A stretch of DNA of 64,000 bases. It comes from Methylorubrum extorquens. Lineage in GTDB: Bacteria; Pseudomonadota; Alphaproteobacteria; Rhizobiales; Beijerinckiaceae. Made by a program: the position numbers and the translations under genes. Shown here piece after piece: positions 18,792 through 60,074 of this stretch. The notes under the pieces were generated by a model. The model ran no database searches and was not told the DNA's origin. It saw only the letters and a list, made by a program, of their open reading frames with translations. The stretch covers positions 277,501-341,500 of the forward strand of contig NZ_JALJXF010000001.1 of assembly GCF_024169925.1 (NCBI RefSeq), written 5' to 3'. The stretch's first letter is position 1. Each line of letters opens with the position of its first letter.

Positions 18792-20168
18792 CTAGATCGC
18801 CGGATCGAGGGCGGAAACCGTCGCCGGAGCCGCAGGCTTGGCCACGAGCCGCACCAGTAGCACGGCCACACCCATCACAGCGGCGAAGATCGCGAAGATC
18901 AGCGGGTTGTAGGCTACGAGCGCCACGAGGCAAATGACCGCCATCCCGAGCGCGAAGGCCGGAGCGTAGGGATAGAGCGGCGCCCGATAGGGCCGGGCCA
19001 GATCCGGCTCGGCTCGGCGCAGGCGGAACAGCGCGGCCATGCTGGTGACGTACATGGTGAGCGCGCCGAACACCGCCATCGTCACGATGCTGGCGGTGAG
19101 CGACTGGCCGGCGACGTTGATGAGGTTGTCGCTGTAGATCGCGGCGATGCCGACGCCGCCGCCGGCCAGCGTCGCGATGTGCGGCGTCTGGAAGCGCGGA
19201 TGCACCCGCGCGAAGACGGCGGGCAGGAAGCCGGCGCGGGCGAGTGCGAAGATCTGCCGGGCATAACCCATGATGATGCCGTGGAACGAGGCGACGAGGC
19301 CGAACAGGCCGAGCCAGACCAGCATGTGCAGCCAGCCACTCGACTCGCCCACCACCCGCTTCATCGCCTGGGGCAGGGGATCGTTGAGATCGGACAGGCT
19401 CTTCCAATCCCCGGCGGCGCCCGCGAACAGCATTACCCCGAAGGCGAGTGCGGTGAGTGTCAGCACGCCGGTGATGTAGGCGATGGGGATGGTGCGCTTG
19501 GGGTCTTTTGCTTCCTCGGCGGCCATGGCCACACCCTCGATGGCGAGGAAGAACCAGATCGCGAAGGGGATTGCGGCGAAGATGCCGCCGATGGCCGCCG
19601 AACCGAACCTGTCCTCTCCGGCCCAGCCGCCGGCCGTGAAGTTGTCGAGGCGGAAGGCCGGAGCGACGACGCCCATGAAGACCAGAAGCTCGGCCACCGC
19701 CAGCACGGTGACGCACAGCTCGAAGGTGGCGGCGATGCGCACGCCGACGATGTTGAGGCCCATGAACAGCAGGTAGGCGCCGAGCGCGGCGTGCTTCGGG
19801 TCGAGCCCCGGATACTGGACGTTGAGATAGGCGCCGATGGCGAGCGAGATCGCGGGCGGCGCGAACACGAACTCGATCAGCGTGGCGTAGCCGGCCACCG
19901 CCGCCCCCGTAGGCCCGAAGGCGCGGAGCGCATAGGCGAACGGGCCGCCGGCCTGTGGGATCGCGGTGGTGAGTTCGGTGAAGCTGAAGATGAAGGCGAC
20001 ATACATCGCGGCCACGCACAGCGTGGTGACGAGGAAGCCCAGGGTGCCTGCTTGAGCCCAGCCATAGCTCCACCCGAAATACTCGCCCGAGATCACGAGC
20101 CCGACGGCGATGCCCCAGAGATGGAAGGCGTTGAGGCTCTTATCGAGCGTGGTCGAAGGCGTCGGCAT
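18792..20168 (-). CDS. eat: Ethanolamine/amino-acid permease (APC family)
   Basis: A 458-residue polytopic membrane protein of the amino acid-polyamine-organocation superfamily with about 12 membrane segments. The N-terminus (LNAFHLWGIAVGLVISGEYFGWSYGW) resembles the ethanolamine permease group strongly. It would import ethanolamine or a related amine by proton symport. The start at 20168 (MPTPSTTLDK) is preferred to an upstream one at 20234. No ethanolamine ammonia-lyase genes are nearby; the only linked gene is the amidotransferase downstream. Confidence 0.8.
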   Translation of the reverse strand: MPTPSTTLDKSLNAFHLWGIAVGLVISGEYFGWSYGWAQAGTLGFLVTTLCVAAMYVAFIFSFTELTTAIPQAGGPFAYALRAFGPTGAAVAGYATLIEFVFAPPAISLAIGAYLNVQYPGLDPKHAALGAYLLFMGLNIVGVRIAATFELCVTVLAVAELLVFMGVVAPAFRLDNFTAGGWAGEDRFGSAAIGGIFAAIPFAIWFFLAIEGVAMAAEEAKDPKRTIPIAYITGVLTLTALAFGVMLFAGAAGDWKSLSDLNDPLPQAMKRVVGESSGWLHMLVWLGLFGLVASFHGIIMGYARQIFALARAGFLPAVFARVHPRFQTPHIATLAGGGVGIAAIYSDNLINVAGQSLTASIVTMAVFGALTMYVTSMAALFRLRRAEPDLARPYRAPLYPYAPAFALGMAVICLVALVAYNPLIFAIFAAVMGVAVLLVRLVAKPAAPATVSALDPAI

Positions 20169-20328
20169 CGTGCAACTCCGCGGTCCCGGCCCAAAAGACG
20201 GCGTCCGAACGGGGCCTATGGGGCAGGGGGCCAAGCAAGAGCGTTGCCGCTTGCGTGCCCGCGGCGCTCGTCAGGCGCCGCTCAGCCCTTCTGGGCCGGC
20301 AACGGGGCGCGCCAAGAGCCGACGGCTG

Positions 20329-20835
20329 TCACTTGGGCGAGGGCCGCTGGCCGGCCGGATCGAAGGGCATGTGAGCGATGCGTCCTGATGCCGGATGTTC
20401 GCTCAGCTCGACGTTGAAGGTTTTGTAGATGAAGGCGAGCAGCTCCTCCGCCGCGCAGGCGCGCGTCTCGGACGAGGCCGCCGCCGCTTTCGCCTCATGA
20501 CAGCGCTGCGACAGGATCTCCTGTTCCGACAACGCCGTTCGCAACGCCATCTTCGTCGCGGTGATCGTCAGCCGGCACTCGCTGATTTCTTTCATCAGCG
20601 CCGATCGTTCCGATTGCCACCGGACACGCTCCTGCTGCACGCTCTGGATCAGATTCATCGCCTGCGGCTCGATCATCTCCTTCCAGCGCTGCAAATCATG
20701 GATCGTGTCCGCAGCCTGCTTCACCAGACCCAATGCGTCGTCGAGCCTGACATCGAGATCGAACATGGCCCACTCGGAGGGCCGGATCGGCAGGCCGCTC
20801 TCACTGGTGCTCGGATATGGGCTGTCGAGGTCCAT
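20329..20835 (-). CDS. Small coiled-coil protein, third gene of operon
   Basis: A 168-residue hydrophilic protein, mostly a predicted long helix (about residues 25-140) with heptad-like spacing of Leu, Ile and Ala. The C-terminal segment AEELLAFIYKTFNVEL resembles the segment AETWLVRIYDAVFTAFG of the upstream gene, suggesting that the two are diverged paralogues. No membrane or catalytic motif is seen. It lies 17 bases after the preceding gene. An internal ATG at 20766 (MFDLDVRLDDAL) is an alternative start. Family unknown to me. Confidence 0.65.
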   Translation of the reverse strand: MDLDSPYPSTSESGLPIRPSEWAMFDLDVRLDDALGLVKQAADTIHDLQRWKEMIEPQAMNLIQSVQQERVRWQSERSALMKEISECRLTITATKMALRTALSEQEILSQRCHEAKAAAASSETRACAAEELLAFIYKTFNVELSEHPASGRIAHMPFDPAGQRPSPK

Positions 20836-20852
20836 CGGAACGCGTTCACGCC

Positions 20853-21344
20853 TTACGGCGCGTCCTGACCGCTGTCGCCGGTTTCCGCGGGGACGGGCTT
20901 GTTCTTCGAACCGAAGGCCGTGAACACGGCATCGTAGATGCGGACTAGCCAGGTTTCCGCCTCCTTAGCGCGCGCCTCGGCGCGGCGGGCGCGGTCCTCG
21001 GCCTGGCTCAGCAGAAGCTGGTTCGAGGCGAGCGTCTTCTGGAGCTGCCGCACCTCGTCCTCAGCTTGGCTGATGACGCTGCGGAGCTGGTTCTCGAGAT
21101 CGACGGCGCGCTCTTCGCTGATCCGGATCGCTTCGGCGGCTTCCTGCACGAGGTCGATCGCGGAGACCCAATCACGCTGCGGCAGCGAGGCCGCGCCCCC
21201 GTCGGAGGCAGATGCGGTGTCGGAGGTGGCTGGCGAGAAATTGATGATCTTGTCTCCCGGTCGCGTCACGTTGGCCTGCCAAGCCCGCATGAGAATGGAA
21301 TTGCCGGAGGAAGGGGCGGCGTCTTTCACGGCCTGTTCTGACAT
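20853..21344 (-). CDS. Small coiled-coil protein, second gene of operon
   Basis: A 163-residue protein with a disordered N-terminus and a predicted coiled coil from about residue 55 to 145 (VQEAAEAIRISEERAVDLEN...). Its end (AETWLVRIYDAVFTAFG) matches that of the next gene. The ATG follows GGAAGGACG, a good ribosome site. The gap to the upstream crescentin-like gene is 41 bases. No family is recognised; a role as a partner of the larger coiled-coil protein is inferred from the operon. Confidence 0.65.
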   Translation of the reverse strand: MSEQAVKDAAPSSGNSILMRAWQANVTRPGDKIINFSPATSDTASASDGGAASLPQRDWVSAIDLVQEAAEAIRISEERAVDLENQLRSVISQAEDEVRQLQKTLASNQLLLSQAEDRARRAEARAKEAETWLVRIYDAVFTAFGSKNKPVPAETGDSGQDAP

Positions 21345-21385
21345 TCAAACGTCCTTCCGAGTCTTCTTTGCCGAGGAACGGCGAA

Positions 21386-22933
21386 TTAGGCCGACTTGCC
21401 CGTGGAGCTGAACGGCCGAACGTTGCTCACCTCGTCGGTCGAGGCATGCGCGGTCTCTTCGTCGAGCTCTTCGTTCACCTGCTCCCGCCACGGGCGGCCC
21501 GAGCGTTTCAGGGCATCGTGCTGCTTCTGCAGTGTGACCCGGCTTTCGCGCGCGATGTCGAGGGCACCTTGCAGCAACGCGCGCTCCGAGCGCTCGTTCT
21601 GCAATTCCTCCATCAATCTGCGGTTCGAGGCGTCGAGATCGGCGCGGGTGGCCTCGTGCCGGTGGGTCAGGTGCTCGATGCGGTCGTTCAGAACCGCGTT
21701 GCGGTTCGTCGTCTGCTCGATCGCCGCATCCTTGGCCGCGAGAGCCTTGTTGAGCATGTCGCAGCGGCTGTCGAGTTCGCCGCGAATGCGCTGGATCTCC
21801 AAGAACCGCTCGGTCTGGCGCGAAAGGTCGGCTTGCAGGGCTTCGAGGCGGCGCTCCAGCGTACTGCGCGCGATGGTCGCCTCCTTGAAATTGCGATCGA
21901 CCGAACGGAATTCCTCGTCCTTGTCCCGCAACTGGTTGCGAGCCTGCACCAGCAACTGTTCCGTCGAGGTCGCCCTGTTCAGGGCGGCTTCGAGTTTCAT
22001 CGCGAGGCTGGCGCGGTCGTTTCGGAGCGCGGACAGCTCCGTTTCGTGCTGCGCCTCGTTCCGCTCCCTTACGGAAATTTCCGTTGCGAGTTGGGTCTCG
22101 ACGATACGCAGGCGCTGCCGGTCGGCTTCGGCGGTGCTCGTCAGGTCGCGGTGGCGGGCATCCAGATCCGCGAGTTGCGTCGCCTGCTCCTCGCTCAGGA
22201 GCTGGAGCCGGCGTCCCTCGACCTCCAGCAGGCTGTTCCGCTCGCGGACGTTGTTCAGCTCGTGCTCGGAACGCGCCAGGGCGCTGTCGGCGGCCTGCGC
22301 TTCCTGCCGCAGTGCCCGGCTCTCGCTCGTCAGCGCCTTGTTCTGCTCGACTTCGGAAAAGAGCTGGCGCTCCAGGTTCTCGATCGCCGAGACCTTGTCG
22401 CGCAGATCGATCTGGTGCGCCTCGACCGCCCCATCGCGCTCGCGCAGGCTTTCCAGGGTTCGCTTCGCGTGAACCTGGGAATCCGCGAGTTCGCTGTTCA
22501 TCCGCGACAGCTTCGCGGAGAGATCGGCCACCTCGTCGCGCAGGTTGCCGTTGGCGCCGACTTCCTGGGTCAGCGTGTTCTCAAGTTCGGCGATCCGCAC
22601 GCTGGCCTTGGACAGCTCGCTGCTGATGCTCGCCAGCGGTTGCAGGATCAGCGCGAAGTCGTCCTGCAGGCTTCGCAGGTCGTCCAGGCGACCGAGCATC
22701 GCGTCGATGCGCTGCCGGACGACCTCGTCCCTTTGGCCGATGGCGTCGAGGTTCGTCGGAGCGGACTCGGGCGCCGAGCGGGAGCGCCTGCCACCCTCCA
22801 TCAGGTCGGGGACGACCGCCTTCGGCAGCCGCGGCGAGGGGGCCGGCTGCGGGTTGCGCGGCTGTTGCTCTGCGTCCCGGTCGCGTGAGGCGGATGACGT
22901 CGGCAGCACGTTTCGGAACGGCATCCAAGCCAT
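21386..22933 (-). CDS. Crescentin-like coiled-coil protein
   Basis: A 515-residue protein. A Pro/Arg-rich head (about 1-60) precedes an almost continuous predicted coiled coil from about 65 to 480, ending in an acidic tail. The start of the rod (LDDLRSLQDDFALILQPLAS) and the absence of any ATPase motif fit crescentin-type filament proteins better than SMC proteins. Crescentin gives Caulobacter its curved shape; homologues in straight rods have unknown roles. The ribosome site AGGGGA precedes the ATG. It leads a three-gene operon with two smaller coiled-coil proteins. Family assignment is tentative because coiled coils match each other by composition. Confidence 0.6.
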   Translation of the reverse strand: MAWMPFRNVLPTSSASRDRDAEQQPRNPQPAPSPRLPKAVVPDLMEGGRRSRSAPESAPTNLDAIGQRDEVVRQRIDAMLGRLDDLRSLQDDFALILQPLASISSELSKASVRIAELENTLTQEVGANGNLRDEVADLSAKLSRMNSELADSQVHAKRTLESLRERDGAVEAHQIDLRDKVSAIENLERQLFSEVEQNKALTSESRALRQEAQAADSALARSEHELNNVRERNSLLEVEGRRLQLLSEEQATQLADLDARHRDLTSTAEADRQRLRIVETQLATEISVRERNEAQHETELSALRNDRASLAMKLEAALNRATSTEQLLVQARNQLRDKDEEFRSVDRNFKEATIARSTLERRLEALQADLSRQTERFLEIQRIRGELDSRCDMLNKALAAKDAAIEQTTNRNAVLNDRIEHLTHRHEATRADLDASNRRLMEELQNERSERALLQGALDIARESRVTLQKQHDALKRSGRPWREQVNEELDEETAHASTDEVSNVRPFSSTGKSA

Positions 22934-23421
22934 CGCAATGTGTTTCCCCTGACCACACGGCGAATTCGCGTGCTTACTGCTTTTTTAACAGATCTGCCGC
23001 TCAACGCGAGTCGCAAGCCCCGTTGGCAACAGGCTTCTTCCCGATAGGTGGCGCGCGGATATTTCGGTAACTGAACCGTGAGTGTCGAATATTTTAAAGT
23101 ATAAATGATCGTATTGTTGGTTCTAATTCAGCGATATGATGGATTGGTAAGAACTGTTTCTCGGGGTATCGGGTTGCTGTCGCAAGTGATGGCGATGGCC
23201 GCCGGGTTACGCAGATTCTGTGGCCGAGGATATTCCGGCAGAAATCGCCGCGGCGAAGAACGCTGCGGCATGGGTCGCCGCGATACGCGCAGATGCCGAG
23301 AAAGGCCCGCGATCACGGCCGCAGGCGGTCGCCGGGTCGGGCGCATCCATTCGCCCGTCAGCGCCGCGTCACGTCCGCGCGGAGGCTGCGCCCTGCCGTC
23401 CCTTCATGAAGGCCGCGGCGG
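22934..23421. other. Intergenic region, AT-rich in part
   Basis: Bases around 22970-23200 are clearly lower in GC than their surroundings and probably hold the promoter of the coiled-coil operon. From 23220 a GTG opens a frame whose first 30 codons look protein-like (VAEDIPAEIAAAKNAA) but then run into antisense of the glycosyltransferase; it may be a gene remnant. Confidence 0.45.
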
Positions 23422-24606
23422 TCAGGCGGCGCTCGGCCCCGTTTCCAGCGAGGCCGCGTCGCGGGTGCGAATGTCCATGGCATTTCCGCGCCAGACGATG
23501 GCGGTGCGGGCCCAGGCGCTCGCCCAGATCGCCGGCAGAAGGGCGTCGCGGACGAGGAGGGCGGCGAGCATCCGCGGCGAGCGGTGCCAGCCGGCGCGCG
23601 CGGCCAGCGCGATCTCCGCCCCGTACCAGAGCACGCCGGCTCCGACGAGCCAGACCGCGACCTCCATCGTCCCCGCCACGAGGCCGGTCAGCACCAGCGG
23701 CAGCAGGGCGCCGATGCCGATCTCGGGGGCGAAGAACAGCGGGAAAGTGACCCGGCGCAGCCGCGCCCAGCGCACCTGCCGCGACCAGACCTCCGACAGG
23801 GCGCGATGACCGAGCGGCTGCTGGAAGGGCGCGGCGACGAGATGCACCCGCCTGCCCGCCGCGCGCACGAGCTTGGTCGCGGCGGCGTCCTCGGCGATCT
23901 CGGCGTTCAGCGCGCGGATGCCGCCCTGCGCTTCGAGGAAGGGCTTGTTCCAGAGCATGCTCTTACCCTGGGCGAAGCCGAGGCCCAGCGCCTCGCCGGC
24001 ATATTGCCAGCGCGCCTGCAGGGTGTTGAGGAAGGCGCATTCCACTTCGGCGAAGAAGTTCTCCGGACGTGCGCCGATCGGCGTCGAGCAAACGAGGCCG
24101 CTGCTGGTCCGCCACGCCGCCTGCATCTGCTGAATGTAGTCGGGCGGCATCAGAACGTTGGAATCGGCGAGGATCACCCAATCGTGCCGGGCGGCATCCC
24201 AGCCCCGCACGCAGTTGTTGAGCTTCGGATTGCCGCCGATGCGCTCGTCGCCGAGGATCACTCGCGACGGGGTCTGCGGGTGCGCCGCCCGCATCCGCTC
24301 CAGCAGCGGCAGGATCGGGTCGCCGGCCTCCGCCACGCAGAAGATCAACTCGTAGGCGGGATAATCGAGCCGGAAGCTCGCGAGCAGCGTCTCTTCGCTG
24401 AACGCCTCCAGGCCGCGCAGGGGCCGCACCACCGAGACGGGGGCGCCCGCCGGGAAGGCGGATGGCGTGCTCTCGTCGTGGTGCTTGTCTCGACTTTTGC
24501 GCCCGATGCGCAGGGCCGCCACCGCGAGGCTCGCGAGGTTGACGGCGACGAGAACCGCGCAGAGCGCGAGGGCGGCGAGCGCGCCGCTCTCCGGCAGGGC
24601 GATCAT
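23422..24606 (-). CDS. GT21-type glycosyltransferase
   Basis: A 394-residue glycosyltransferase of the ceramide glucosyltransferase family (GT21). An N-terminal membrane segment (about 8-33) is followed by a GT-A domain with VSVVRPLRGLE, the DSN motif (ILADSNVLMPPDYIQ) in the D2 position, EDAAATKLV as D3 and RQVRWARLRR as the (Q/R)xxRW motif, then two or three C-terminal membrane segments. It would transfer glucose or a related sugar to a lipid such as a ceramide, diacylglycerol or a hopanoid. The acceptor cannot be named. It diverges from the HDAC-family gene. Confidence 0.85.
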   Translation of the reverse strand: MIALPESGALAALALCAVLVAVNLASLAVAALRIGRKSRDKHHDESTPSAFPAGAPVSVVRPLRGLEAFSEETLLASFRLDYPAYELIFCVAEAGDPILPLLERMRAAHPQTPSRVILGDERIGGNPKLNNCVRGWDAARHDWVILADSNVLMPPDYIQQMQAAWRTSSGLVCSTPIGARPENFFAEVECAFLNTLQARWQYAGEALGLGFAQGKSMLWNKPFLEAQGGIRALNAEIAEDAAATKLVRAAGRRVHLVAAPFQQPLGHRALSEVWSRQVRWARLRRVTFPLFFAPEIGIGALLPLVLTGLVAGTMEVAVWLVGAGVLWYGAEIALAARAGWHRSPRMLAALLVRDALLPAIWASAWARTAIVWRGNAMDIRTRDAASLETGPSAA

Positions 24607-44690: not shown

Positions 44691-45137
44691 TTACGAGCGC
44701 ACCTCGCGCTTGGCCACGAAGTTCAGCTCGTCGACCAGCACGTCCTTCACCACGTCGGAGCCGAGGCGCTCGTTCACCCGGGCGCGGATCTGGGCCAGCC
44801 GGCCGTTGATATCGTAGCGGGCGAGCTTGCGGAAATCGATGGTCGTGTCGCCGTAGATCTGGCGGAAGGCCTCATCGACCACGAAGGCGTTGGGGGCGAC
44901 GGGGAGCGTGTGCATCAGCTTGGCGTCGGCGGTGAAGACCAGCACGGCGATGACGTAACCCTGCACCTTGCCCTCGGCGACCATCGGAATGTTGATGGGC
45001 GCGAGCTTCTGATATTGCAGCCCTTCGAGATAGGGCTCGGTCGATTTCGAGAAGAACCCGCCGCCGAAGGTCACCGCCGCGTAGCAGGAGGCGATGGTGA
45101 CGGCGCAGATCCACAGGCCGGAGACGAGGACGCGCAT
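44691..45137 (-). CDS. Membrane-anchored flagellar-cluster protein, FliL-like shape
   Basis: A 148-residue protein with one N-terminal membrane segment (about 5-25) and a periplasmic domain. Its end (VKDVLVDELNFVAKREV) is reminiscent of the C-terminal part of FliL, but the match is not strong enough to assign it. It begins three bases after the FlgN-like gene and closes the flagellar operon. Confidence 0.55.
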   Translation of the reverse strand: MRVLVSGLWICAVTIASCYAAVTFGGGFFSKSTEPYLEGLQYQKLAPINIPMVAEGKVQGYVIAVLVFTADAKLMHTLPVAPNAFVVDEAFRQIYGDTTIDFRKLARYDINGRLAQIRARVNERLGSDVVKDVLVDELNFVAKREVRS

Positions 45138-45140
45138 GGC

Positions 45141-45485
45141 TCAATCGCGTCCCAAATGTGCGGACAAGCGGGCCGAATAGGTGCCGTCGGACTCGGCCGC
45201 CTGAAGGCTGGCCTGCAGCGTCTCGCCGACCTCCTCCACCGCCCGCAGATGCAGGGCGACGGCCTCCTGATTGCGGATCAGCTTGTCGCGCAGGCGCGCC
45301 AGCACGATCCCGGTCTCGGCGTCGAGGGTCGCCACGTCGAGGCCGCGGGCGAGGCGGGTGAGTTCGAGGAGGCTCCGGCTCTTGGCCCGGTTGACCGCGT
45401 CGAGATCGAGGGCCGTGTTGGCATGGAGCGCCTCGGTCTCGGCCTCGACGGTGGCCTCCAGCCGCTTCAGGGATTCGAGGAGCAT
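45141..45485 (-). CDS. FlgN-like flagellar chaperone candidate
   Basis: A 114-residue, mostly helical protein (MLLESLKRLEATVEAETEAL...) of the size and composition of FlgN, the export chaperone for FlgK and FlgL. It lies five bases after the CheL/FlgJ-type gene. The assignment is from length, helical pattern and location. Confidence 0.5.
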   Translation of the reverse strand: MLLESLKRLEATVEAETEALHANTALDLDAVNRAKSRSLLELTRLARGLDVATLDAETGIVLARLRDKLIRNQEAVALHLRAVEEVGETLQASLQAAESDGTYSARLSAHLGRD

Positions 45486-45490
45486 GAGGG

Positions 45491-45961
45491 TCAGACCTTA
45501 CCCGCGACGCCGGTGCCCGTGGGCGTGACCGGGGTGTTGGCGGGGCGGGCGGCGTTCAGCATGCGGGCGATGCCGATGCCGCCGGTCTGCGCGATCTGCT
45601 GGCCGAGCTGCTCGGCGAGCATCGACTTCCAGATGCCGCCAGCATTGCCCTTGCCGAAGACGGTCTCGGCCTTGGGCAGCATCGCCTCGACGAATTGCTG
45701 GATCACCTGCCCCTCGAACTTCCGGTAAGGGTCGGCGGAGCCGGTCCGGGCGGTCTCGTTCTTCAGGCCTGTCAGCGCCCCGTGGACGTCGAGGGGCATG
45801 TGCGTGGTCAGGCCCACCTCGCGCGCGGCCTCGTCGGCGGCGCTGGCGAAGGCGGTCGGGTCGCCGGGCTGCGACAGCTTGGCCGCGGCCTCCTGATAGC
45901 GGGCCGGGTCAGCGGCGCGCGCCACGTCCATCACGATGTCGGAAGGGGGGGTGATGCTCAT
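45491..45961 (-). CDS. Rod-binding protein, CheL/FlgJ N-domain type
   Basis: A 156-residue protein carrying only the rod-binding domain of FlgJ (FEGQVIQQFVEAMLPKA near residue 82 and AGGIWKSMLAEQLGQQIA near 109), without the C-terminal muramidase found in enterobacterial FlgJ. Alphaproteobacteria use such short proteins, annotated CheL, as rod-assembly scaffolds. The start is taken at 45961. Confidence 0.75.
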   Translation of the reverse strand: MSITPPSDIVMDVARAADPARYQEAAAKLSQPGDPTAFASAADEAAREVGLTTHMPLDVHGALTGLKNETARTGSADPYRKFEGQVIQQFVEAMLPKAETVFGKGNAGGIWKSMLAEQLGQQIAQTGGIGIARMLNAARPANTPVTPTGTGVAGKV

Positions 45962-46035
45962 CGCGCCGTCAAACCTTGATGCGGCGCGAACCGGGCGCAC
46001 GCCGCTGAGGATGGATCGATCCTAGATCCGCTGGC

Positions 46036-46446
46036 TTACGGGAGGCTTGCATCGCGGCGCTGGGCGAGGCCGTCGAGCCGCTCCATCGCGTCGATCCGGT
46101 CGCGTTCCCGGCCGAGCAGCGTCTCGATCCGCTCTGCGCTCAGCTCCGCGCGCTTCTGCGCAAGGCCCTGCTCGCGCACGTCGTCCGCCTGGGAGGCAGC
46201 GATGCGTTCGAGTTCGGTCGCCCGCGCGGCGAGCCCGCGCAGGCGGCGGTTGGCGGCTTCCAGGAACAGGTGGCCGTGCGCCGAGGACCCGACCGCCGCG
46301 AGCAAGGCCGCCCGGTCCGCCTCGACCGCCTCGGCATTGCGCCGGGTCTCGGCGAGCTGCCACTCGGCGGCGCGGCGCATCTGCTCCTGCACGGCGGTGA
46401 GGCGCTCGGCGCGCTTCAGGCGCTTGGCGATGTCGGCGGCGGACAT
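46036..46446 (-). CDS. FliJ-like helical flagellar protein
   Basis: A 136-residue, entirely helical protein (IAKRLKRAERLTAVQEQMRR...) with the size and coiled-coil pattern of FliJ, the general chaperone of the flagellar export gate. It lies between fliR (six bases upstream) and the CheL-type gene. Sequence identity to FliJ cannot be judged by eye. Confidence 0.5.
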   Translation of the reverse strand: MSAADIAKRLKRAERLTAVQEQMRRAAEWQLAETRRNAEAVEADRAALLAAVGSSAHGHLFLEAANRRLRGLAARATELERIAASQADDVREQGLAQKRAELSAERIETLLGRERDRIDAMERLDGLAQRRDASLP

Positions 46447-46451
46447 GACGC

Positions 46452-47222
46452 TCAGCCTTTGCGAAGCCAAGCGACGTAGCCGGAGAGGAACTGCGTCATG
46501 AACTCGCTCGACAGGTAATAGAGCAGCAGCAGCGCACCGAACATCACGAAGGGCGTGGCAACGAAGTAGACCGGAATCGTCGGCGTGAGCTTGTTCACGA
46601 AGCCCGCCGCGAGGTTCACCGCCACCGCGTAGATGATGAAGGGGGCGGCGATCCGCAGGGCGAGGGTGAAGGCTTCGCCGATCTGGTCGGCAATACGCAC
46701 CAGCGCAGTCTGCGTCCCGAAGCCCTCGCCCGGCGGGATGCGGCCGTAGGAATCGACAAGGCCGCGAAACAGCTCCCAGTGCAGGTCGGCGGCGAACATC
46801 AGCGCGACCGCGGCGAAGACGATCAGCGATTCGACCGCGGGGATGGCGTCGGTCCCCTCGACCGGCGTGCCCGGCATCGAGCCGAAGCCGACCATGGTCG
46901 AGACCGCGTTCATCACGGTTTCCAGCACGAAGATGAAGATGCGCCCGAGCAGGCCGATGAGCAGCCCGGTGATCGTCTCGCTGGCGACCCAGGTCAGCGT
47001 TTCGGTCGGCGCCTGGCCCGAGAGCTTGGTCTGGAACAGCGGCAGCAGCAGCGGCGTGACGGCGAGCGAGACGCCGCCGGCGATGAGGAGCCGCACCTGC
47101 GCCGGCACGCGCGGGCTGGAGAAGCCGGGCACGATCAGGAGGCAGCCGCCGATCCGGCAGAAGATCAGGAAGACGCCGAGGAAGGCCTCTCCGCCGAACA
47201 AGCTGCCGAAGCCCGGAATCAC
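46452..47222 (-). CDS. fliR: Flagellar export protein FliR
   Basis: A 256-residue membrane protein with about six membrane segments, a core of the flagellar type III export gate with FliP, FliQ, FlhA and FlhB. Typical segments are [18 protein letters not shown] near 18 and [19 protein letters not shown] near 180. The GTG start overlaps the flhA stop by four bases (GTGA), so translation is coupled. Confidence 0.92.
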
Positions 47223-49300
47223 GAGATCGTGCCCAGTGATTTCAACTCGACGCCGCGGGCGATTTCCAGATGCGAGAGCACGGGCAGAGTCGGGAAGATT
47301 CGCTCGATGATCATCCGCACGTAGGGCCGGGCGTCGGGGGCGGTGACGAGGGCGAATCCGTGGACCTGCCGCATCCGCTCGCGGATGGCCTCGCCGGCCT
47401 CAAGGCCGAACTGCTCCACGAGGCGCGGGTCGATGTCGAACTCGATGACTTCACCCTTGGCGTCGCGCTTCAGGCTCTGGTGGAAGGTCAGATCCCAGTT
47501 GGCGCCGAGCCGCAGCACGTGCAGCACCCCGTCCTCGGCCAGATCGCCGCAGATCTGCTGGGCGACGCGCATCCGCACGTGCTCGGCGATCTGCTCGGCG
47601 CGGCGGGCATGCGGGCTGATCTCGGCCACCGCCTCCAGGATCAGGTGCAGGTTGCGGATCGAGACCCGCTCGGAGAGCAGCAGCTTCAGCACCGCCTGGA
47701 GGCCCGAATGTGAGATCTGCGACGGGCAGATCTCATCGATCAGCCGCTTGTATTCGGGGTCGAGCCGGTCGAGCAGCGCCCGCATGTCCTTGTAGGACAG
47801 GAACTGGGGCAGGTTGTTGCGGATCACCTCGGAGAGGTGGGTGAGCAGCACCGAGGCGCCGTCGATCGCCTCGAAGCCGGAGCGGCGCACCTCCCCGGCA
47901 TAGGCGTCGACGATCCACAGCGCCTTCATGCCGAAGGCGGGCTCGCGCACCTCCTCGGACGGCACATCGGGGCGCGGACCGTCGCCGACGACGACGAGCA
48001 ACTCGCCGGGCCGCATCTCCTGGGTCGCGGCGACCGTGCCGTGGATGCGGATCTGGTAGGTCTTGGGCGGCAGGTTGAGGCTGTCGGTGAGCTTGATGTC
48101 GGGCACGACGAAGCCGTACTGGCGCGCGAACTTGCGGCGCATCTTGGCGACCCGGTGGTGCAGTTCGGCGTGGTTGCCCTGGATCTGCGCGGCGACCTGA
48201 CGGCCGAGGCAGAGCTCGATCTCCGGCGTGCGCAGCTGCTCCTTGACCGACTCTTTGGTCTCGGCCTGCTTGCTCTCCTCCTCCCGCTTCACCTGGGCTG
48301 CCGCGGCGGCGGCCCGGGCCGCTTGGCGCCTCGGAATGGTGATCGCCACGAAGCCCATCAGGCCCGCGAGCGTGACGAAGGGCAGGAACGGCAGGCCGGG
48401 GACGATGGCGAACATCAGCATCAAGGCGGCGGCGACGATCAGCGCGCGGGGATAGGCGCTGAGCTGGCCGAGCACGGCTTCCTCGGTCGCGCCGCGGGTG
48501 CCGCCCTTGGAGACGAGGAGGCCGGCCGCCAGCGAGACGATCAGGGCCGGGATCTGCGAGACCAGGCCGTCGCCGACGGACAGCTTGACGAAGACGTCGG
48601 CGGCCTGGCCGAGCGGCATGCCGTGGCGGGTGGTGCCGATGATGACGCCGCCGAACACGTTGACGAAGATGACGATGAGCGAGGCCACCGCCTCGCCGCG
48701 CACGAATTTCGAGGCGCCGTCCATCGAGCCGAAGAACGCCGACTCCTCCTCCAGCTCCCGTCGGCGGCGCTGCGCCTCCTTGTCGTCGATCAGCCCGGCA
48801 TTGAGATCGGCGTCGATCGCCATCTGCTTGCCGGGGATGGCGTCGAGGGTGAAGCGGGCGCCCACCTCCGCGATACGGGTCGCACCCTTGGTGATGACGA
48901 GGAAGTTGACCGTGATGAGGATCACGAAGACGACGATTCCGATGACGAAATCGCCGCTCATCACGAATTGCGAGAAGCCCTGGATGACGTGGCCGGCGGC
49001 GTCCACGCCCTTCTGGCCGTTGGCCAGGATCAGCCGCGTGGTGGCGATGCCGAGCGCCAGCCGCAGCAGCGTCGCGATCAGCAGCACGGTGGGAAAGGCG
49101 GAGAATTCGAGCGGCTTCTGAATCCAGAGCGCCACCATCAGGATCAGCACCGACAGCGCGATCGAGAAGGCAAGCCCGACATCGATCAGCACCGCCGGCA
49201 CCGGTAGGAACAGCACCGCCAGGATCGCGACGATGCCGGCCGCGAAGCCGAAGTCGCGCCGCGACCGCTTTTCCAGGACGAGCGCTTCGCTCACCGCCAT
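47219..49300 (-). CDS. flhA: Flagellar export protein FlhA
   Basis: A 693-residue protein of the FlhA/InvA family. Eight membrane segments (about 15-325) precede a cytoplasmic C-terminal domain that docks export substrates and chaperones. The FHIPEP signature is clear in [20 protein letters not shown] near 145, and [13 protein letters not shown] is near 195. Overlaps fliR. An upstream start at 49321 is possible. The canonical upstream neighbour fliQ is displaced by the bamA-like gene. Confidence 0.95.
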
Positions 49301-49672
49301 GACGTGAACCGATTCCCTCAAGGTCGAGGCGGTTGTGGCGCGACAAGCTTGCGCGGGGATGGGTGCCCGCGGGCAAGGGTAGGCGAGGGTCAGCAGCCGC
49401 TCTTAACCGTGACTCTCGAAGCCTGCCGTCATCCGCCGCATGGCAGGGCATCGAATCGGGTGCTGCCGTTGTCCGCTCTGAGTGCTAAGGTCTTCTCTGT
49501 CGAAGCTTTTGTCCTTCCCAAGGTCGAGGCCTTCGCGCGGGACCGGGCGGTCAAGTCTCGACAGCTTCCTCCGCCCGGTCCCAACCGTTTCCCCTACCGT
49601 CAAGCCTGTCCGTCTCGGCTCCGTTGAGCTGGGTGCTCCGCCGCACGCCGACGGGGCTTGTCGCGTTGACGT
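49301..49672. other. Intergenic region upstream of bamA-like gene
   Basis: No gene was found. The stretch separates the divergent flhA and bamA-like genes and carries a perfect 12-base inverted repeat, listed separately. Confidence 0.45.
49539..49582. repeat. Perfect 12-base inverted repeat
   Basis: The arms GGGACCGGGCGG (49539-49550) and CCGCCCGGTCCC (49571-49582) are perfect complements with a 20-base loop. It lies about 90 bases upstream of the bamA-like start and could be a terminator, an operator or a stable 5' leader hairpin. Confidence 0.7.
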
Positions 49673-52234
49673 GTGAAAAATTCCCACGAATATCGCGTGA
49701 GGAGCGCGGTCGCTCCGGCCTGCCTGAGCCTGTCCGTGCCCCGATCCCTCTGTTTCCGCCGTTGCCTTTTCCTCGCAGCAGCGGTTGCGCCCCTGGCCGC
49801 TGAAGCGCAGGCCGCCGAATTCACCGTCGAGGGGAACCGCCGGGTCGATGCGGCGGTGATCCGCGCCATCGTCGAGAATGCCCCGGCCGACGCGCGGCGC
49901 GAGTTGCTGGCGAGCGGCTACTTCTCGGACGTTTCGGTGACCCGTGACGGCGACCGGACGCTGGTACGGGTGCGGGAGAAGGCCGTGACCGGCCGTGTCG
50001 TCTTCGAGGGCAACAAGAAAGTCGAGAAGGCGACGCTCGAAGCCGCCATCGTCACGCGGGGCGCCGCGCCCCTCGATCCCGCCCAGGTCGCGGCGGATGT
50101 CGAGCGCATCCGCGACGTCTACAAGCGTTCGGGCCGCGGCACCGCCAAGGTCAGCTACCGTCTCGTCGACCTGCCCAGCGGACGCTCCGACGTCGTCTTC
50201 GCCATCGACGAGGGCGATAAGACCGGCATCCGCGAGATCCACTTCATTGGCAACAGCGCCTACTCGGAATCGACCCTTAAGGGGCTGATGTCCTCGTCCG
50301 AGATGAACTTCCTCTCGTTCATCAAGACCTCCGACGTCTACGATCCCGACCGCATCTCCGCCGACCTCGACATCGTCCGCCGGTACTACCTCAAGAACGG
50401 CTACGCCGACTTCCGCGTCGTCAACGCCGACGCCCGCTACGTCGAGACCGGTGAGGATGCCGGCTGGGTCATCAACGTCACCGTCGAGGAAGGTGAGCAA
50501 TACACCGTCGGCGCGGTGGCCGTGGATCCGCGCATCGCCGGCATCGACCGCGAGGCCCTCGACGGACAGATCCGCGCTCAGGTCGGCGACGTCTACAACG
50601 CCGAGGATGTCGAGAAGACCCTCGTCGGCGTCACCAACGAGGTCAACCGCCAGGGCTACCCGTTCGCCCAGGTGCGTCCCACCGGCCAGCGCGACCGCGC
50701 CACGCATCAGGTCGCCCTCGGCTTCGTGGTCGAGGACGGACCGCGCGTCTACGTCGAGCGCATCAACATCCGCGGCAACACCCGCACCCGCGACTACGTC
50801 ATCCGCCGCGAGCTCGATCTGACCGAGGGCGATGCCTACAACCGCGTGCTGGTGGACCGCGCCGAGCGCCGGCTGAACGGACTGGGCTTCTTCAAGAAGG
50901 TGCGCTTCTCCAACGAGCCGGGCTCGGCGCCGGACCGGGTGGTGGTGAACATCGACGTCGAGGATCAGCCCACGGGCTCGTTCTCGGTGGCGGGCGGCTA
51001 CTCCACCCAGGACGGCATCATCGGCGAGGTCTCGGTCTCCGAGTCGAACTTCCTCGGCCGCGGCCAGTACGTGCGCCTCGCGGTGCAGGCGGGCGAGTAT
51101 GCCCGCGGTGTCGATCTCTCTTTCACCGAGCCGTACTTCCTCGGCTACCGTATGGCGGCCGGCATCGACGGCTTCTACAAGTACAGCAACCTCGCGCGGT
51201 ACTCGCGCTACGAGACCACGGTCGTCGGCACGCAACTGCGTCTCGGCCTGCCGGTGACGGATGAGTTCGGCGTCACCTTCCGCTACTCGATCTATAACAC
51301 CGACCTGAAGGTGCCGAATACGCTGAGCCAGCCCTACAACGACTGCTCGAGCCCCATCAGCGGCTACACTGCGGTCAATGCCGCGGGACAGGCGGCCTAT
51401 CCCGCCTGCACCTATGACGGCGAGGCCTCGATCGCCATCAAGTCGGCGCAGGGCTCGACGCTGACCTCGCTCGTCGGCGCGACCCTGGCCTATTCCACGC
51501 TCGACAACCTGCAGGCACCGAAGAACGGCTTCTACGCCGAGCTGAAGCCCGAGATCGCCGGTCTCGGAGGCGATTCGAACTTCTACCGGTTGACGGGCGA
51601 GGCCCGAGCCTACCGGGAGTTCGGCGAGGACGTGGTCGGCTTCGTCAAGTTCCAGGGCGGCCATATGGGAGCGACCGACGGCAACCCGTTGCGCGTCACC
51701 GACCAGTTCTTTCTCGGTCCGTCATTGGTGCGCGGTTTTGCCGTCAACGGGATCGGCCCGCGCGACGTCGGCACCGGCGACGCGCGCTCCAACGCACTCG
51801 GCGGCTCGACCTATTTCGGCGGCACGCTGGAGGTGCAGTTCCCGCTGCCCGGCATCCCGAAGGATCTCGGCCTGAAGGGCGCCCTGTTCTCCGATGCGGG
51901 CACGCTGCTCGGTTACAAGGGCAAGCGCAGCTTCGATGTGAACGGCGACGGCTTCATCAACGGCACCAGCCCGACCGGCGGCTGCAGCTACAGCGCCGGC
52001 GCGATCAGCGTGGAGCCCGAATGCGTGAACGTGCGCGACAAGGCGACGATCCGCTCCTCCATCGGCGCCTCGATCCTGTGGAACTCGCCGCTCGGGCCGA
52101 TCCGCTTCGATTACGCCTACGCGCTCACCAAGGACGAGGGCACCCGTGTCTACGGGGCGGACGGCACCTATTACGGCCGGGTCGGCAAGGACCAGACGCA
52201 GGCCTTCCGTTTCTCGGGCGGGACACGGTTCTGA
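49673..52234 (+). CDS. BamA/Omp85-family outer-membrane protein
   Basis: An 853-residue Omp85 protein with a signal-like N-terminus (FRRCLFLAAAVAPLAAEAQA near 28-47), five POTRA-like repeats (about 48-430) and a C-terminal barrel (about 450-853) ending in Phe. POTRA1 (EFTVEGNRRVDAAVIRAIV...) is followed by VVFEGNKKVEKA as in BamA. The barrel keeps the QFFLGPSLVRGFAVNGIGPR region containing the conserved VRGF motif, and has an EF-hand-like loop (DVNGDGFIN) near 755. It would insert or assemble outer-membrane proteins. It lies on the opposite strand inside the flagellar block, away from the usual rseP-skp-lpxD context. The GTG start at 49673 is uncertain. Confidence 0.85.
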   Translation: MKNSHEYRVRSAVAPACLSLSVPRSLCFRRCLFLAAAVAPLAAEAQAAEFTVEGNRRVDAAVIRAIVENAPADARRELLASGYFSDVSVTRDGDRTLVRVREKAVTGRVVFEGNKKVEKATLEAAIVTRGAAPLDPAQVAADVERIRDVYKRSGRGTAKVSYRLVDLPSGRSDVVFAIDEGDKTGIREIHFIGNSAYSESTLKGLMSSSEMNFLSFIKTSDVYDPDRISADLDIVRRYYLKNGYADFRVVNADARYVETGEDAGWVINVTVEEGEQYTVGAVAVDPRIAGIDREALDGQIRAQVGDVYNAEDVEKTLVGVTNEVNRQGYPFAQVRPTGQRDRATHQVALGFVVEDGPRVYVERINIRGNTRTRDYVIRRELDLTEGDAYNRVLVDRAERRLNGLGFFKKVRFSNEPGSAPDRVVVNIDVEDQPTGSFSVAGGYSTQDGIIGEVSVSESNFLGRGQYVRLAVQAGEYARGVDLSFTEPYFLGYRMAAGIDGFYKYSNLARYSRYETTVVGTQLRLGLPVTDEFGVTFRYSIYNTDLKVPNTLSQPYNDCSSPISGYTAVNAAGQAAYPACTYDGEASIAIKSAQGSTLTSLVGATLAYSTLDNLQAPKNGFYAELKPEIAGLGGDSNFYRLTGEARAYREFGEDVVGFVKFQGGHMGATDGNPLRVTDQFFLGPSLVRGFAVNGIGPRDVGTGDARSNALGGSTYFGGTLEVQFPLPGIPKDLGLKGALFSDAGTLLGYKGKRSFDVNGDGFINGTSPTGGCSYSAGAISVEPECVNVRDKATIRSSIGASILWNSPLGPIRFDYAYALTKDEGTRVYGADGTYYGRVGKDQTQAFRFSGGTRF

Positions 52235-52249
52235 TGACGCGGCTTGGCC

Positions 52250-52516
52250 TCAGAACCCCGTCGCGATCCGGCCGTAGGTCATCTCGGCGAAGGCGTAGAT
52301 CTGCGAGCCGACGAAGGTGCCGGTCACCAGCATCACCAGGAGGATCGCGACGATCTTCGGGACGAAGGTGAGCGTCACCTCCTGGATCTGCGTCAGCGCC
52401 TGAAGCAGGGCGACCGCGATGCCGACCAGCATCGCCGCGCCGACGGAGGGGCCGGCGGCGACCAGCACCGTCCAGATCGCGGAGCGGACGAGTTCGAGGG
52501 CGTCGACCTCGTTCAT
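52250..52516 (-). CDS. fliQ: Flagellar export protein FliQ
   Basis: An 88-residue protein with two membrane segments, typical FliQ length and sequence (ALLQALTQIQEVTLTFVPKI near 38). It is part of the export gate with FliP and FliR. The start is taken at 52516 (MNEVDALELV). It is followed on the opposite strand by the 3' end of the bamA-like gene, 16 bases away. Confidence 0.93.
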   Translation of the reverse strand: MNEVDALELVRSAIWTVLVAAGPSVGAAMLVGIAVALLQALTQIQEVTLTFVPKIVAILLVMLVTGTFVGSQIYAFAEMTYGRIATGF

Positions 52517-52535
52517 GGGACGGCCTTCAGAGGGC

Positions 52536-52582
52536 GCATCGTCTTTTTTCCGAAGGCCGAAACCCACCGCTCGAGCCGATGC
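52536..52582. repeat. Dispersed palindrome, copy 1 of a tandem pair
   Basis: The reverse complement begins GCATCGGCTCGAGCGGTGGG and ends CGGAAAAAAGACGATGC, matching the dispersed palindrome with diverged centre. It lies between fliQ and flgD. Confidence 0.65.
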
Positions 52583-52599
52583 GTTAGGCCCTTGTTTTT

Positions 52600-52646
52600 C
52601 ATCAGCTTTTCCGACGGCCAGCGGCCGCCTTTCAGGCTGATGCTCT
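52600..52646. repeat. Dispersed palindrome, copy 2 of a tandem pair
   Basis: The reverse complement begins AGAGCATCAGCCTGAAAGGC and ends GTCGGAAAAGCTGATG, another diverged copy. It abuts the flgD stop codon. Confidence 0.65.
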
Positions 52647-53061
52647 AGCTGATCGAGATGCCGGAGGCGAGCAGCATCTCGCGGCCGTCGGTGAGCTTGG
52701 CCATCACGCCGTCGCCGGTGACCCGAACCGACTGTACCGTGCCGGACGTCAGGCCGTCCGCCGAGGTGAGGTTCCGCCCGATGATCGCGTCCGCCTGATT
52801 CAGGAAGCTCGAGGTCAGCAGCGAGTCGAGCTTCTGGTTGGTCTTGGTGGCCTGCTCGACCTGCGAGAAGGTGGCGAGCTGGCCGACATATTCCGTCGAG
52901 TCCATCGGCTTCGTCGGATCCTGGTTCTGAAGCTGGGCCATCAGCAGCGTCAGGAAGGTGTCGGCGTTCATCTTGGAGGCGACCGAGGTGGCCGCCTTCG
53001 CCGCCGCAGCGGTGGTCGTGCTGGTGGTGCCGGTATTCGTGCCGGTGCTGCTGACGTCCAT
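52645..53061 (-). CDS. flgD: Flagellar hook assembly protein FlgD
   Basis: A 138-residue protein that contains the FlgD N-terminal domain (FLTLLMAQLQNQDPTKPMDS near 34), the scaffold for hook polymerisation. The C-terminal tudor/FNIII domains of longer FlgD proteins are absent, as in many alphaproteobacteria. It lies seven bases after flbT. Confidence 0.92.
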   Translation of the reverse strand: MDVSSTGTNTGTTSTTTAAAAKAATSVASKMNADTFLTLLMAQLQNQDPTKPMDSTEYVGQLATFSQVEQATKTNQKLDSLLTSSFLNQADAIIGRNLTSADGLTSGTVQSVRVTGDGVMAKLTDGREMLLASGISIS

Positions 53062-53067
53062 GGAAGT

Positions 53068-53589
53068 TCAGGCCTTGTCGGAGGAGAGGGCCGGCCGGGT
53101 CCGCGGCCGGCGGCGTTGGCCGGAGCGGGCGGATGGCACGAGGGCGGCGGGTGGTACCTCGGGGAGGGGAGCCGAGGGGCCGAGCAAAGTGGACTCCGTC
53201 GCGTAGAGGCCGCGGATCAGTTTCAGCGCCTCGAAGGCCCGGCCCGCCTCGACGAGGGCGTGCGCCGCCGTCAACCCGTCCCGGATCGCCGGCTCGGTCG
53301 TCACGGCCAGGATGCCGTCCTCGATCCGGCCATAGAGCGACCGCGCCGGGCCGGCTTGGGCCGGGGCGATCAGCATGGTCTGCGCCGCGAAGTAGAGCTG
53401 GCGCAGGGGCGTCGTCGCCTCCTCCGCCTGGAGGACATGGCCCTCCAGCAGGAAGGTGGCGTCGTTCATCAGTTCGAGCGCGACCTTGCGATCGACGCGC
53501 ACCACCGCGCCGTTGATGTAGACGCGCTCGCCCGCTTTCAGGCTCAGGTGCATGGTGCGGGCCGCGGCCCGGCCGGTTTCGCGCGTCAT
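53068..53589 (-). CDS. flbT: Flagellin mRNA regulator FlbT
   Basis: A 173-residue protein of the FlbT family (LKAGERVYINGAVVRVDRK near 16). In Caulobacter, FlbT binds the 5' leader of flagellin mRNA and limits its translation until the hook is complete. The start may be the later ATG at 53553 (MHLSLKAGE), which matches the family N-terminus better. It lies ten bases after flaF, whose product acts with FlbT. Confidence 0.9.
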   Translation of the reverse strand: MTRETGRAAARTMHLSLKAGERVYINGAVVRVDRKVALELMNDATFLLEGHVLQAEEATTPLRQLYFAAQTMLIAPAQAGPARSLYGRIEDGILAVTTEPAIRDGLTAAHALVEAGRAFEALKLIRGLYATESTLLGPSAPLPEVPPAALVPSARSGQRRRPRTRPALSSDKA

Positions 53590-53599
53590 GGCCCGCCCC

Positions 53600-53950
53600 C
53601 TACTGCAATCCGTCGCGGATCGAGGTGTTGACCTCGATCAAGGCCGCGAGGCTGCGCTCGGGTGCGCTCAGCACTTCGCCGGCCTCGCGCATGTTCCACA
53701 GGCCGATCGCCACGAGGTCGGAGCGCAGACCCTCGGGCAAGGCGTTTTCGGGGTCGAGCAAGTCGGCGATCAGCACGTTCCAGAGATCCTGGATCGAGCC
53801 GACCGCGGCGCTCCGCGCCGAACCGGCTGCGGATCCCCGCGCTTCGGCCGTGCGGAGTTGGCCGAGCGCCCGGTCGAAGGCGTCGCGCTCGCGCTCGCGA
53901 CCGAGGTCGGGCGCGTCTTCCATGATCTCGGCATAGGACAGGCGGTACAT
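53600..53950 (-). CDS. flaF: Flagellar biosynthesis regulator FlaF
   Basis: A 116-residue, mostly helical protein of the FlaF family, starting MYRLSYAEIMEDAP and containing LWNVLIADLLDPENALP. In alphaproteobacteria FlaF is needed for flagellin synthesis and works with FlbT. The open frame extends upstream into flgL in another frame; the ATG at 53950 is the family start. Confidence 0.88.
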   Translation of the reverse strand: MYRLSYAEIMEDAPDLGRERERDAFDRALGQLRTAEARGSAAGSARSAAVGSIQDLWNVLIADLLDPENALPEGLRSDLVAIGLWNMREAGEVLSAPERSLAALIEVNTSIRDGLQ

Positions 53951-53991
53951 CGGGGCCGACGCTCCGTACTCGGTTTCAAAAAAGCGGGCGT

Positions 53992-55044: not shown

Positions 55045-55051
55045 GGCCGTA

Positions 55052-56515: not shown

Positions 56516-56593
56516 CGGTCGGTTCCTGGGACGCGATACGAGACGGGGGCGCCGGTGTCGGGCCGGCGCCCCCGGATGCGACGATGGTCCGCG

Positions 56594-57805: not shown

Positions 57806-58011
57806 GCGGACACCTCGTTGACTTTCGAATTCTTGCGCACTGGACACGGTGTCGCTTGCGCGGGGCTGAAGGCGTGGTCGATCACAGACGGCGATGCGTT
57901 CGGCGCTTCGTCGGCTGCCCCCGCGAAGGCGGGGCGGCACAGGCAGGTTTTCGCAGCCTGCATAGACTTGGCTGCGTCCGCCGGGTCATCGAAAGGCAAA
58001 GTCATCCTCAT
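57802..58011 (-). CDS. Small hypothetical protein between fliI and flgE, 69 aa
   Basis: The start codon overlaps the fliI stop (ATGA, 58008-58011) and the stop overlaps the flgE start (ATGA, 57802-57805), implying coupled translation on both sides. The sequence (MRMTLPFDDPADAAKSMQAA...) has two Cys residues and no recognised family. It might instead be a leader that couples fliI and flgE translation. Confidence 0.5.
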   Translation of the reverse strand: MRMTLPFDDPADAAKSMQAAKTCLCRPAFAGAADEAPNASPSVIDHAFSPAQATPCPVRKNSKVNEVSA

Positions 58012-59336: not shown

Positions 59337-59340
59337 CGCA

Positions 59341-60069: not shown

Positions 60070-60074
60070 GGCCC

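Follow-up and report, generated by a model that had tools for sequence, protein, structure and literature searches.

A crescentin-family gene and two small coiled-coil genes kept together in Methylorubrum extorquens and related bacteria

Introduction

Among bacterial proteins that resemble intermediate filaments, crescentin serves as the model, and it is usually regarded as acting alone. Here we describe a group of three genes (hereafter the trio) of Methylorubrum extorquens, identified within a stretch of 64,000 nucleotides of contig NZ_JALJXF010000001.1 (referred to below as the window), in which a crescentin-like lead gene (CreS) is followed by two short genes encoding helical proteins, ORF2 and ORF3. 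The three genes are gained or lost together, and their conservation in other genomes leads us to suggest that some crescentins have dedicated partners, which are absent from the textbook case of Caulobacter.

Results

Organization of the locus

The three genes lie on the minus strand, with the lead gene at the high-coordinate end (whole span 22933-20329), and are separated by gaps of 41 bases (CreS-ORF2) and 17 bases (ORF2-ORF3). The arrangement given in a first-pass annotation of the sequence was thereby confirmed in gene sizes, spacing and coordinates, as was its remark that none of the three products looks like an enzyme. The third-position G+C of the trio (0.82-0.86) is like that of neighbouring genes. 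A family 21 glycosyltransferase gene lies upstream (23422-24606) and an amino-acid permease gene downstream (18792-20234). Scans for promoters and terminators gave no signal above shuffles. The features discussed below are collected in Table 1.

Table 1. Coordinates of the trio and its features in the window
Feature	Coordinates	Strand	Remarks
CreS-like lead gene, crescentin family	21386..22933	-	515 aa; PF19220 406 bits and crescentin 8afl match
CreS rod domain, residues 107-465	21539..22615	-	Pfam Rod_CreS match; heptad register, three matching breaks
CreS C-terminal rod segment, ~residues 290-480	21494..22066	-	part retained in Bosea-like mini-CreS
Approximate stutter site, ~residues 431-438	21620..21637	-	+4 register shift; homologous to Caulobacter 406-409
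CreS tail motif SNVRPF, residues 503-508	21410..21427	-	pattern [NDST]NVxx[FLI]
ORF2, candidate partner	20853..21344	-	163 aa; N-terminus mostly disordered, one long helix 59-144, short helix 15-26 (predicted)
ORF2 linear motif DKIINF, residues 31-36	21237..21254	-	in predicted disordered N-terminus
ORF2 conserved block 1, residues 57-85	21090..21176	-	alignments A1 and A3
ORF2 conserved block 2, residues 118-144	20913..20993	-	alignments A1 and A3
ORF3, candidate partner, probable distant ORF2 paralogue	20329..20835	-	168 aa; one long helix 31-145 (predicted)
Block absent whole from two close relatives (G015, G028)	~20252..23418	-	between glycosyltransferase and permease

The lead protein

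Judged by its profile match and alignment, the lead protein is a member of the crescentin family. It matches Rod_CreS (PF19220) over the complete profile (406.3 bits, positions 1-359 of 359, cut-off 100), being the sole protein of the whole genome above the cut-off, and it is co-linear with the solved Caulobacter crescentin 8afl (E 1.4e-11, residues 56-469 on 29-442). Its closest named relative is a CreS protein of Methylobacterium sp. Leaf123 (96% identity). The likeness to crescentin noted in the first-pass annotation is therefore more than one of composition, and the comparison that it proposed with crescentin, intermediate filament proteins and SMC came out in favour of the first: the scores for the eukaryotic intermediate filament domain PF00038 (7.8 bits, E = 3, cut-off 40) and for the SMC equivalog (34.7 bits, cut-off 567) place the protein outside both families. 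At NCBI, the lead gene's relatives often bear the name "chromosome partitioning protein ParA"; this name is not supported for the window protein, in which neither Pfam nor NCBIfam gave a ParA/CbiA ATPase match at E up to 10.

The heptad register was followed with a home-made coiled-coil phase score in 35-residue windows, no dedicated program being used. By this measure, 25 proteins of the CreS clade defined below and 13 proteins of Caulobacteraceae share three register breaks, which are of equal size and whose sites agree within about 10 residues. The last break, a +4 shift, falls at approximately Caulobacter residues 401-408 after correction of the numbering, i.e. near the published stutter at residues 406-409 (PMC10873595). 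The most conserved segment of CreS (residues 441-460) lies inside the C-terminal rod. The N-terminus, which we compared with the basic membrane-binding segment formed by the first 27 residues of Caulobacter crescentin, begins with a short hydrophobic-basic stretch (MAWMPFRNVL), and its conservation is low (0.44 for residues 1-20 among CreS proteins accompanied by ORF2).

The tail pattern [NDST]NVxx[FLI] was found in 29 of 30 CreS proteins with an adjacent ORF2 and in all eight Microvirga-group proteins. Since the latter retain the motif though they are partner-less, the S/T-N-V-x-x-F/L tail is more likely a putative site for another, shared receptor than a site for ORF2.

ORF2 and ORF3

AlphaFold2 predictions of the single chains gave one long helix for each small protein (pLDDT >90 for residues 59-144 of ORF2 and 31-145 of ORF3) with disordered ends; that of ORF2 contains helices and no strand, and its pLDDT falls below 50 at residues 27-52. 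ORF2 is a member of a family so far without a name, recognizable by two blocks with the consensus RDWxSAxDLxxEAxEAIRxxEERA and, further on, AExRAxEAExWLxRxHDxxxxxF. Its N-terminal motif, [polar][KR][VI]xx[FL], is present in 57 of the 67 relatives with a measurable N-terminus (out of 82, which are not independent of one another), against a mean of 1.1 and a maximum of 6 in composition shuffles. The ending [AE]E(L/T)xLxxIYxxF, which the small proteins had been said to share, is real as a feature, although neither the ORF2 terminus (AETWLVRIYDAVF) nor that of ORF3 (AEELLAFIYKTFN) fits it letter for letter; the ending of the ORF2 family is AExWLxRxHDxxxxxF, and the "IY" of the window proteins is a local variant.

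The name "TolC family protein", carried at NCBI by some ORF2 relatives, arises in our reading from a marginal match to the OEP domain. In window ORF2 this match covers 70 of 187 profile positions and barely exceeds the cut-off (25.5 bits against 22), and at E 0.001 it is found in 7 of 66 family members. The domain is thus not recognized across the family, and the name is not supported. Both public names, "ParA" and "TolC family", mislead about the genes of the trio.

The two small proteins are probably distant paralogues, as judged from profile scores that support this relationship more clearly in one direction than in the other. BLASTP of ORF2 against ORF3 detected no significant similarity, and hhalign gave a probability of 93% (E 2.9e-7) for an alignment consisting mostly of coiled coil; as the latter result is weak alone, decoy tests were added. 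On the ORF3 profile, 17 ORF2 proteins (near copies included) reached up to 30.1 bits with a median of 24.5, while decoys made of CreS pieces, heptad-phase shuffles and reversed ORF2s stayed at or below 8.7. The third-gene protein of locus L117 scores on both profiles (45.6 and 22.1 bits). The ORF2 profile (A1) was built from 16 of 33 collected ORF2s and the ORF3 profile (A2) from 10 of 18 ORF3s, in part from loci that were later scored, so that the bit scores of these loci are inflated and positions are unaffected. The claim that the small proteins are diverged paralogues thus stands as probable, with the BLASTP result and the weak reverse comparison (see Discussion) left on the other side.

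Conservation of the trio

Of 61 relatives, 37 of which belong to the same genus, CreS was found in 12, and all 12 strong ORF2 matches adjoin it there; ten more genomes contain only weaker, paralogue-like ORF2 matches. In a sample of 328 genomes of the GTDB family, PF19220 is matched at E 1e-10 or better in 94 genomes (in 78 above the cut-off) and ORF2 at E 0.001 or better in 60. Eighteen ORF2 matches reach 140 bits, and all 18 adjoin CreS; the remainder comprise one that adjoins CreS and is itself cut by a contig end (G848), six in Bosea-like genomes, and weaker ones. At most 11 ORF2 and five CreS candidates per genome were scored in this sample, absences from which are no proof, and for 67 of the 94 genomes the surroundings of CreS were inspected. 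Altogether, ORF2 lies directly 3' of CreS in 31 distinct loci, while 28 other CreS-like loci, outside the Microvirga group, have no ORF2 downstream. The downstream sequence is short in L107 and L108 (~1.1 kb) and in L115 (0.25 kb).

The CreS tree comprised 78 rows chosen from 107 sequences, including 8 of 23 from the Microvirga group and 12 of 21 from Caulobacteraceae; duplicates (L075, L080, L083, L145), fragments (L117, L140) and very weak matches (L195, L196) were dropped. Locus L117, a fragment with an in-frame stop, is for this reason counted among the 31 loci and missing from the tree. One clade (100/100) contains 30 rows with ORF2 and the 8 Microvirga-group rows, with no others inside. 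All 30 non-Microvirga members have ORF2, compared with none of the 40 outside rows, 12 of which are Caulobacteraceae and whose order is unsure owing to long branches. Two changes suffice to explain this distribution, e.g. a basal gain followed by loss in the Microvirga line. Mantel tests made without L115 and L117 revealed correlated distances for CreS and ORF2 (r 0.89, 29 loci) and for CreS and ORF3 (r 0.95, 18 loci).

It might be supposed that the three genes adjoin one another through historical accident alone, with no functional tie of ORF2 and ORF3 to CreS, and the existence of one CreS lineage without partners, the Microvirga group, would agree with this. We regard such an explanation as very improbable: the adjacency of CreS and ORF2 is kept even where the identity of CreS to that of the window has fallen to 27%, it occurs in two families and in varied genomic surroundings (the trio has different neighbours in other Methylobacterium species), and the trio is retained even where CreS has shrunk, as described below.

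Variant loci were also observed. In L109 three profile-supported ORF2/ORF3-like genes surround CreS (one downstream, one upstream and one divergent), with a fourth look-alike recognized by eye, and in L145 three such genes stand in a row downstream of it. In L117 (genome G850) the CreS gene is broken by an in-frame TGA, with ORF2 and the third gene downstream still open. An 11-bit match to the ORF3 profile 1 kb downstream in L131 was taken as noise. Locus L106 (G889, C22:104915-107627) contains two tandem CreS-family matches, the first in an open frame of 865 residues, without ORF2; these represent another crescentin-like subfamily. Four Microvirga-group loci (L087, L138, L139, L144) share a recurring neighbourhood upstream of CreS, where the preceding gene is presumably that of a glycolate oxidase iron-sulphur subunit.

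Gain or loss of the trio as a block

Two close relatives of the window genome, G015 and G028, are without CreS. Their glycosyltransferases are 90% and 84% identical to that of the window, and about 50 and 80 bases after them, respectively, begins the sequence found ahead of the window's permease. The missing ~3.2 kb correspond to the trio together with its upstream region. Seven of 30 glycosyltransferase loci were viewed: G015 and G028 have clean empty sites, the permease lies ~0.4 kb away in G003, and it does not follow in L199, L203, L213 and L214. The trio is thus gained or lost as a block. The conserved gene order that the first-pass annotation had proposed to look for was found, and the trio is kept as a unit rather than matching by composition.

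Methylopila belongs to another family, and its locus L066 is placed within a 22-row group of the tree in which 19 rows are Methylobacterium; this placement suggests that the trio may have been passed between families as a unit. Carriage by phages or plasmids was considered and rejected after searches of IMG/VR with profile A1 (25 pattern matches, none confirmed as an ORF2 relative) and of PLSDB (no CreS or ORF2 relative). Elsewhere in the window, a flagellar-type gene cluster was recognized by eye on the minus strand (44691-61328).

A cut-down crescentin with both candidate partners

Six Bosea-like genomes (group g30, labelled by one near-identical named protein, P0182, compared by eye) contain the same three-gene order, although none of them matches PF19220 at E 1e-10. 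Their lead protein (mini-CreS; 248-298 aa) matches only positions ~300-484 of the CreS profile, with 37-66 bits, compared with at most 8.4 for 300 heptad-phase shuffles and 11.4 for ORF2s. The matched region corresponds to window residues ~290-480, i.e. about 190 residues of the C-terminal rod, stutter included. Both small proteins are present in all six genomes (ORF2 109-122 bits; ORF3 34-50 bits on A2, where 300 shuffles gave at most 9.6). One further genome of the group, G1051, encodes a full-length CreS with the trio. No retention of a membrane anchor by mini-CreS is claimed, the upstream frame being alike in only three of the six loci. The 276-aa protein P0168, in which a CreS C-terminus is joined to ORF2, resembles a natural fusion; its arginine-rich middle looks out of frame, and it was therefore judged a gene-call artefact and left uncounted.

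The partners are kept where CreS has lost its N-terminal 60%, and this is our main reason for placing a candidate docking site for them on the C-terminal rod. The same genomes bear on two other ways in which small helical proteins could serve a crescentin. ORF2 and ORF3 might act as assembly factors, chaperone-like or anti-polymerizing, which pair with new CreS, restrain or nucleate it and then leave the filament. Such a role would account for the same co-inheritance data, suits two small, long-helix proteins, and fits the finding that Caulobacter CreS assembles alone (PMC10873595), so that partners could tune rather than build; anti-polymerization alone, however, does not explain why a mini-CreS without most of the rod keeps both partners, and we consider assembly factors unlikely. 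Alternatively, ORF2 and ORF3 would co-polymerize with crescentin along the C-terminal rod, the Bosea-like form being a minimal core of truncated crescentin and partners, a heteropolymer that we hold to be possible, if rather doubtful.

ORF2-family genes away from CreS

The window genome contains a second ORF2-family gene, L069 (C1:1182781-1183146; 26.9 bits), which is not linked to CreS. It resembles window ORF2 in its C-terminal AExWL block and helical-looking middle, and differs in its weaker match and its setting among polysaccharide genes (Wzz/GNVR, Wzy/O-antigen ligase, polysaccharide deacetylase and glycosyltransferase); G026 has a gene in a setting of this kind as well (L070). In other Methylobacterium genomes, ORF2-like genes form a tandem pair and a triplet away from CreS (L072 and L073, by eye).

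Taken with the presence of ORF2-family members in genomes where CreS was not found, and with conserved linear motifs that suggest an outside receptor, the setting of L069 could mean that the trio is mainly a scaffold placing some other envelope process, such as polysaccharide export or cell-wall enzymes, and not primarily a filament for shape, with the ORF2 family as adaptor. However, three other loci of the ORF2 family (L071, L072 and L073), compared by eye, are without polysaccharide neighbours of this kind, and another crescentin of Hyphomicrobiales bends cells (PMC12700997), which makes a scaffold of this type seem quite improbable.

Discussion

We consider it reasonably probable that the trio is an inherited unit, composed of a crescentin-type filament with ORF2 and ORF3 as accessory subunits docked on the C-terminal rod of CreS. 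CreS would supply the coiled-coil backbone of a filament lying at the inner membrane. ORF2, usually with ORF3 or another member of the small family, would bind the C-terminal third of the rod as a long-helix coiled coil, while its free N-terminal motif (D/E-K/R-V/I-x-x-F/L) and the CreS tail motif may anchor the filament to some site in the cell or regulate it there. The proposal draws on sequence-based evidence, namely family membership, register and stutter, adjacency, co-inheritance, block presence or absence, the mini-CreS trio, and the motifs; from these we infer physical binding, the C-terminal docking site, filament regulation and any effect on cell shape.

Several observations weigh against this proposal. 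ORF3 was found 3' of ORF2 in only 22 of the 31 loci. Of the nine without it, seven carry an ORF2-like gene immediately upstream of CreS (E 5e-9 to 0.002); in L124 and the short locus L086 neither was detected. The second partner is therefore not fixed: ORF2 is constant among the non-Microvirga members of the clade, and the others are downstream, upstream or undetected, so that the paired partners described in the first-pass annotation hold good for ORF2 and only in part for ORF3. None of the 23 Microvirga-group loci, whose CreS matches are strong, has a partner beside CreS, and the family search gave no ORF2 match in this group. In Caulobacteraceae, represented by genome group f115 (assigned from a holdfast-protein match and stretches identical to the solved crescentin), CreS is matched in 21 of 149 genomes; no ORF2/ORF3-like gene was found within 1.5 kb of these 21 loci (best E 0.027, short frames), nor was ORF2 found in 19 of the 21 genomes by a search that had no positive control. 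The paralogy is one-sided, 18 ORF3s staying at or below 15.5 bits on the ORF2 profile, most of them at the decoy level (even shuffled ORF2s score up to 18.4 there). A single genus-level group underlies the mini-CreS argument, and co-transcription or co-transfer without contact would also yield co-inheritance. Finally, Caulobacter crescentin bends cells, even those of E. coli, without partners (PMC10873595). As no partners were found for the crescentins of the Microvirga group and Caulobacter, they are not required for filaments or curvature as such.

With this qualification, the conserved operon offers named candidate partners of a crescentin and points to the stutter-containing C-terminal rod as a candidate docking region, and the binding targets of this rod and of the CreS tail become directly testable.

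Comparison with known systems

Crescentin-like proteins of Methylobacterium and of other Hyphomicrobiales are already in print. Crescentin homologues in Methylobacterium and Microvirga are mentioned in PMC4448529, and crescentin-like proteins in 13 families of Hyphomicrobiales are reported in PMC12700997. The main text of the latter names neither Methylobacterium, Methylorubrum nor Microvirga, where it treats operons and synteny it deals with different genes, and the sections consulted describe no partner genes. Our literature searches, whose coverage left out most subscription papers, found no report of crescentin operon partners, and a search for species descriptions of curved Methylobacterium found none. 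The view that an operon of this kind is not well described thus holds for the partners, which we did not find in those sources.

Window CreS shares with Caulobacter crescentin the full rod-profile match, co-linear alignment, register breaks and stutter; it is longer (515 against 457 aa), with a longer head, and, unlike it, the creS loci of Caulobacteraceae lack ORF2/ORF3 neighbours within 1.5 kb (21 loci) and the tail motif (0 of 19 proteins). Another counterpart is the CreS of Chelatococcus reniformis, which is of the same order and Pfam family as window CreS and is reported to restore curvature to a Caulobacter creS deletion (PMC12700997). With eukaryotic intermediate filaments window CreS has in common, by analogy via crescentin, a long coiled-coil rod and a stutter (PMC10873595). 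Crescentins with candidate partners (Methylobacterium), without them (the Microvirga group and Caulobacter) and in cut-down form (Bosea-like genomes) constitute a natural comparison set.

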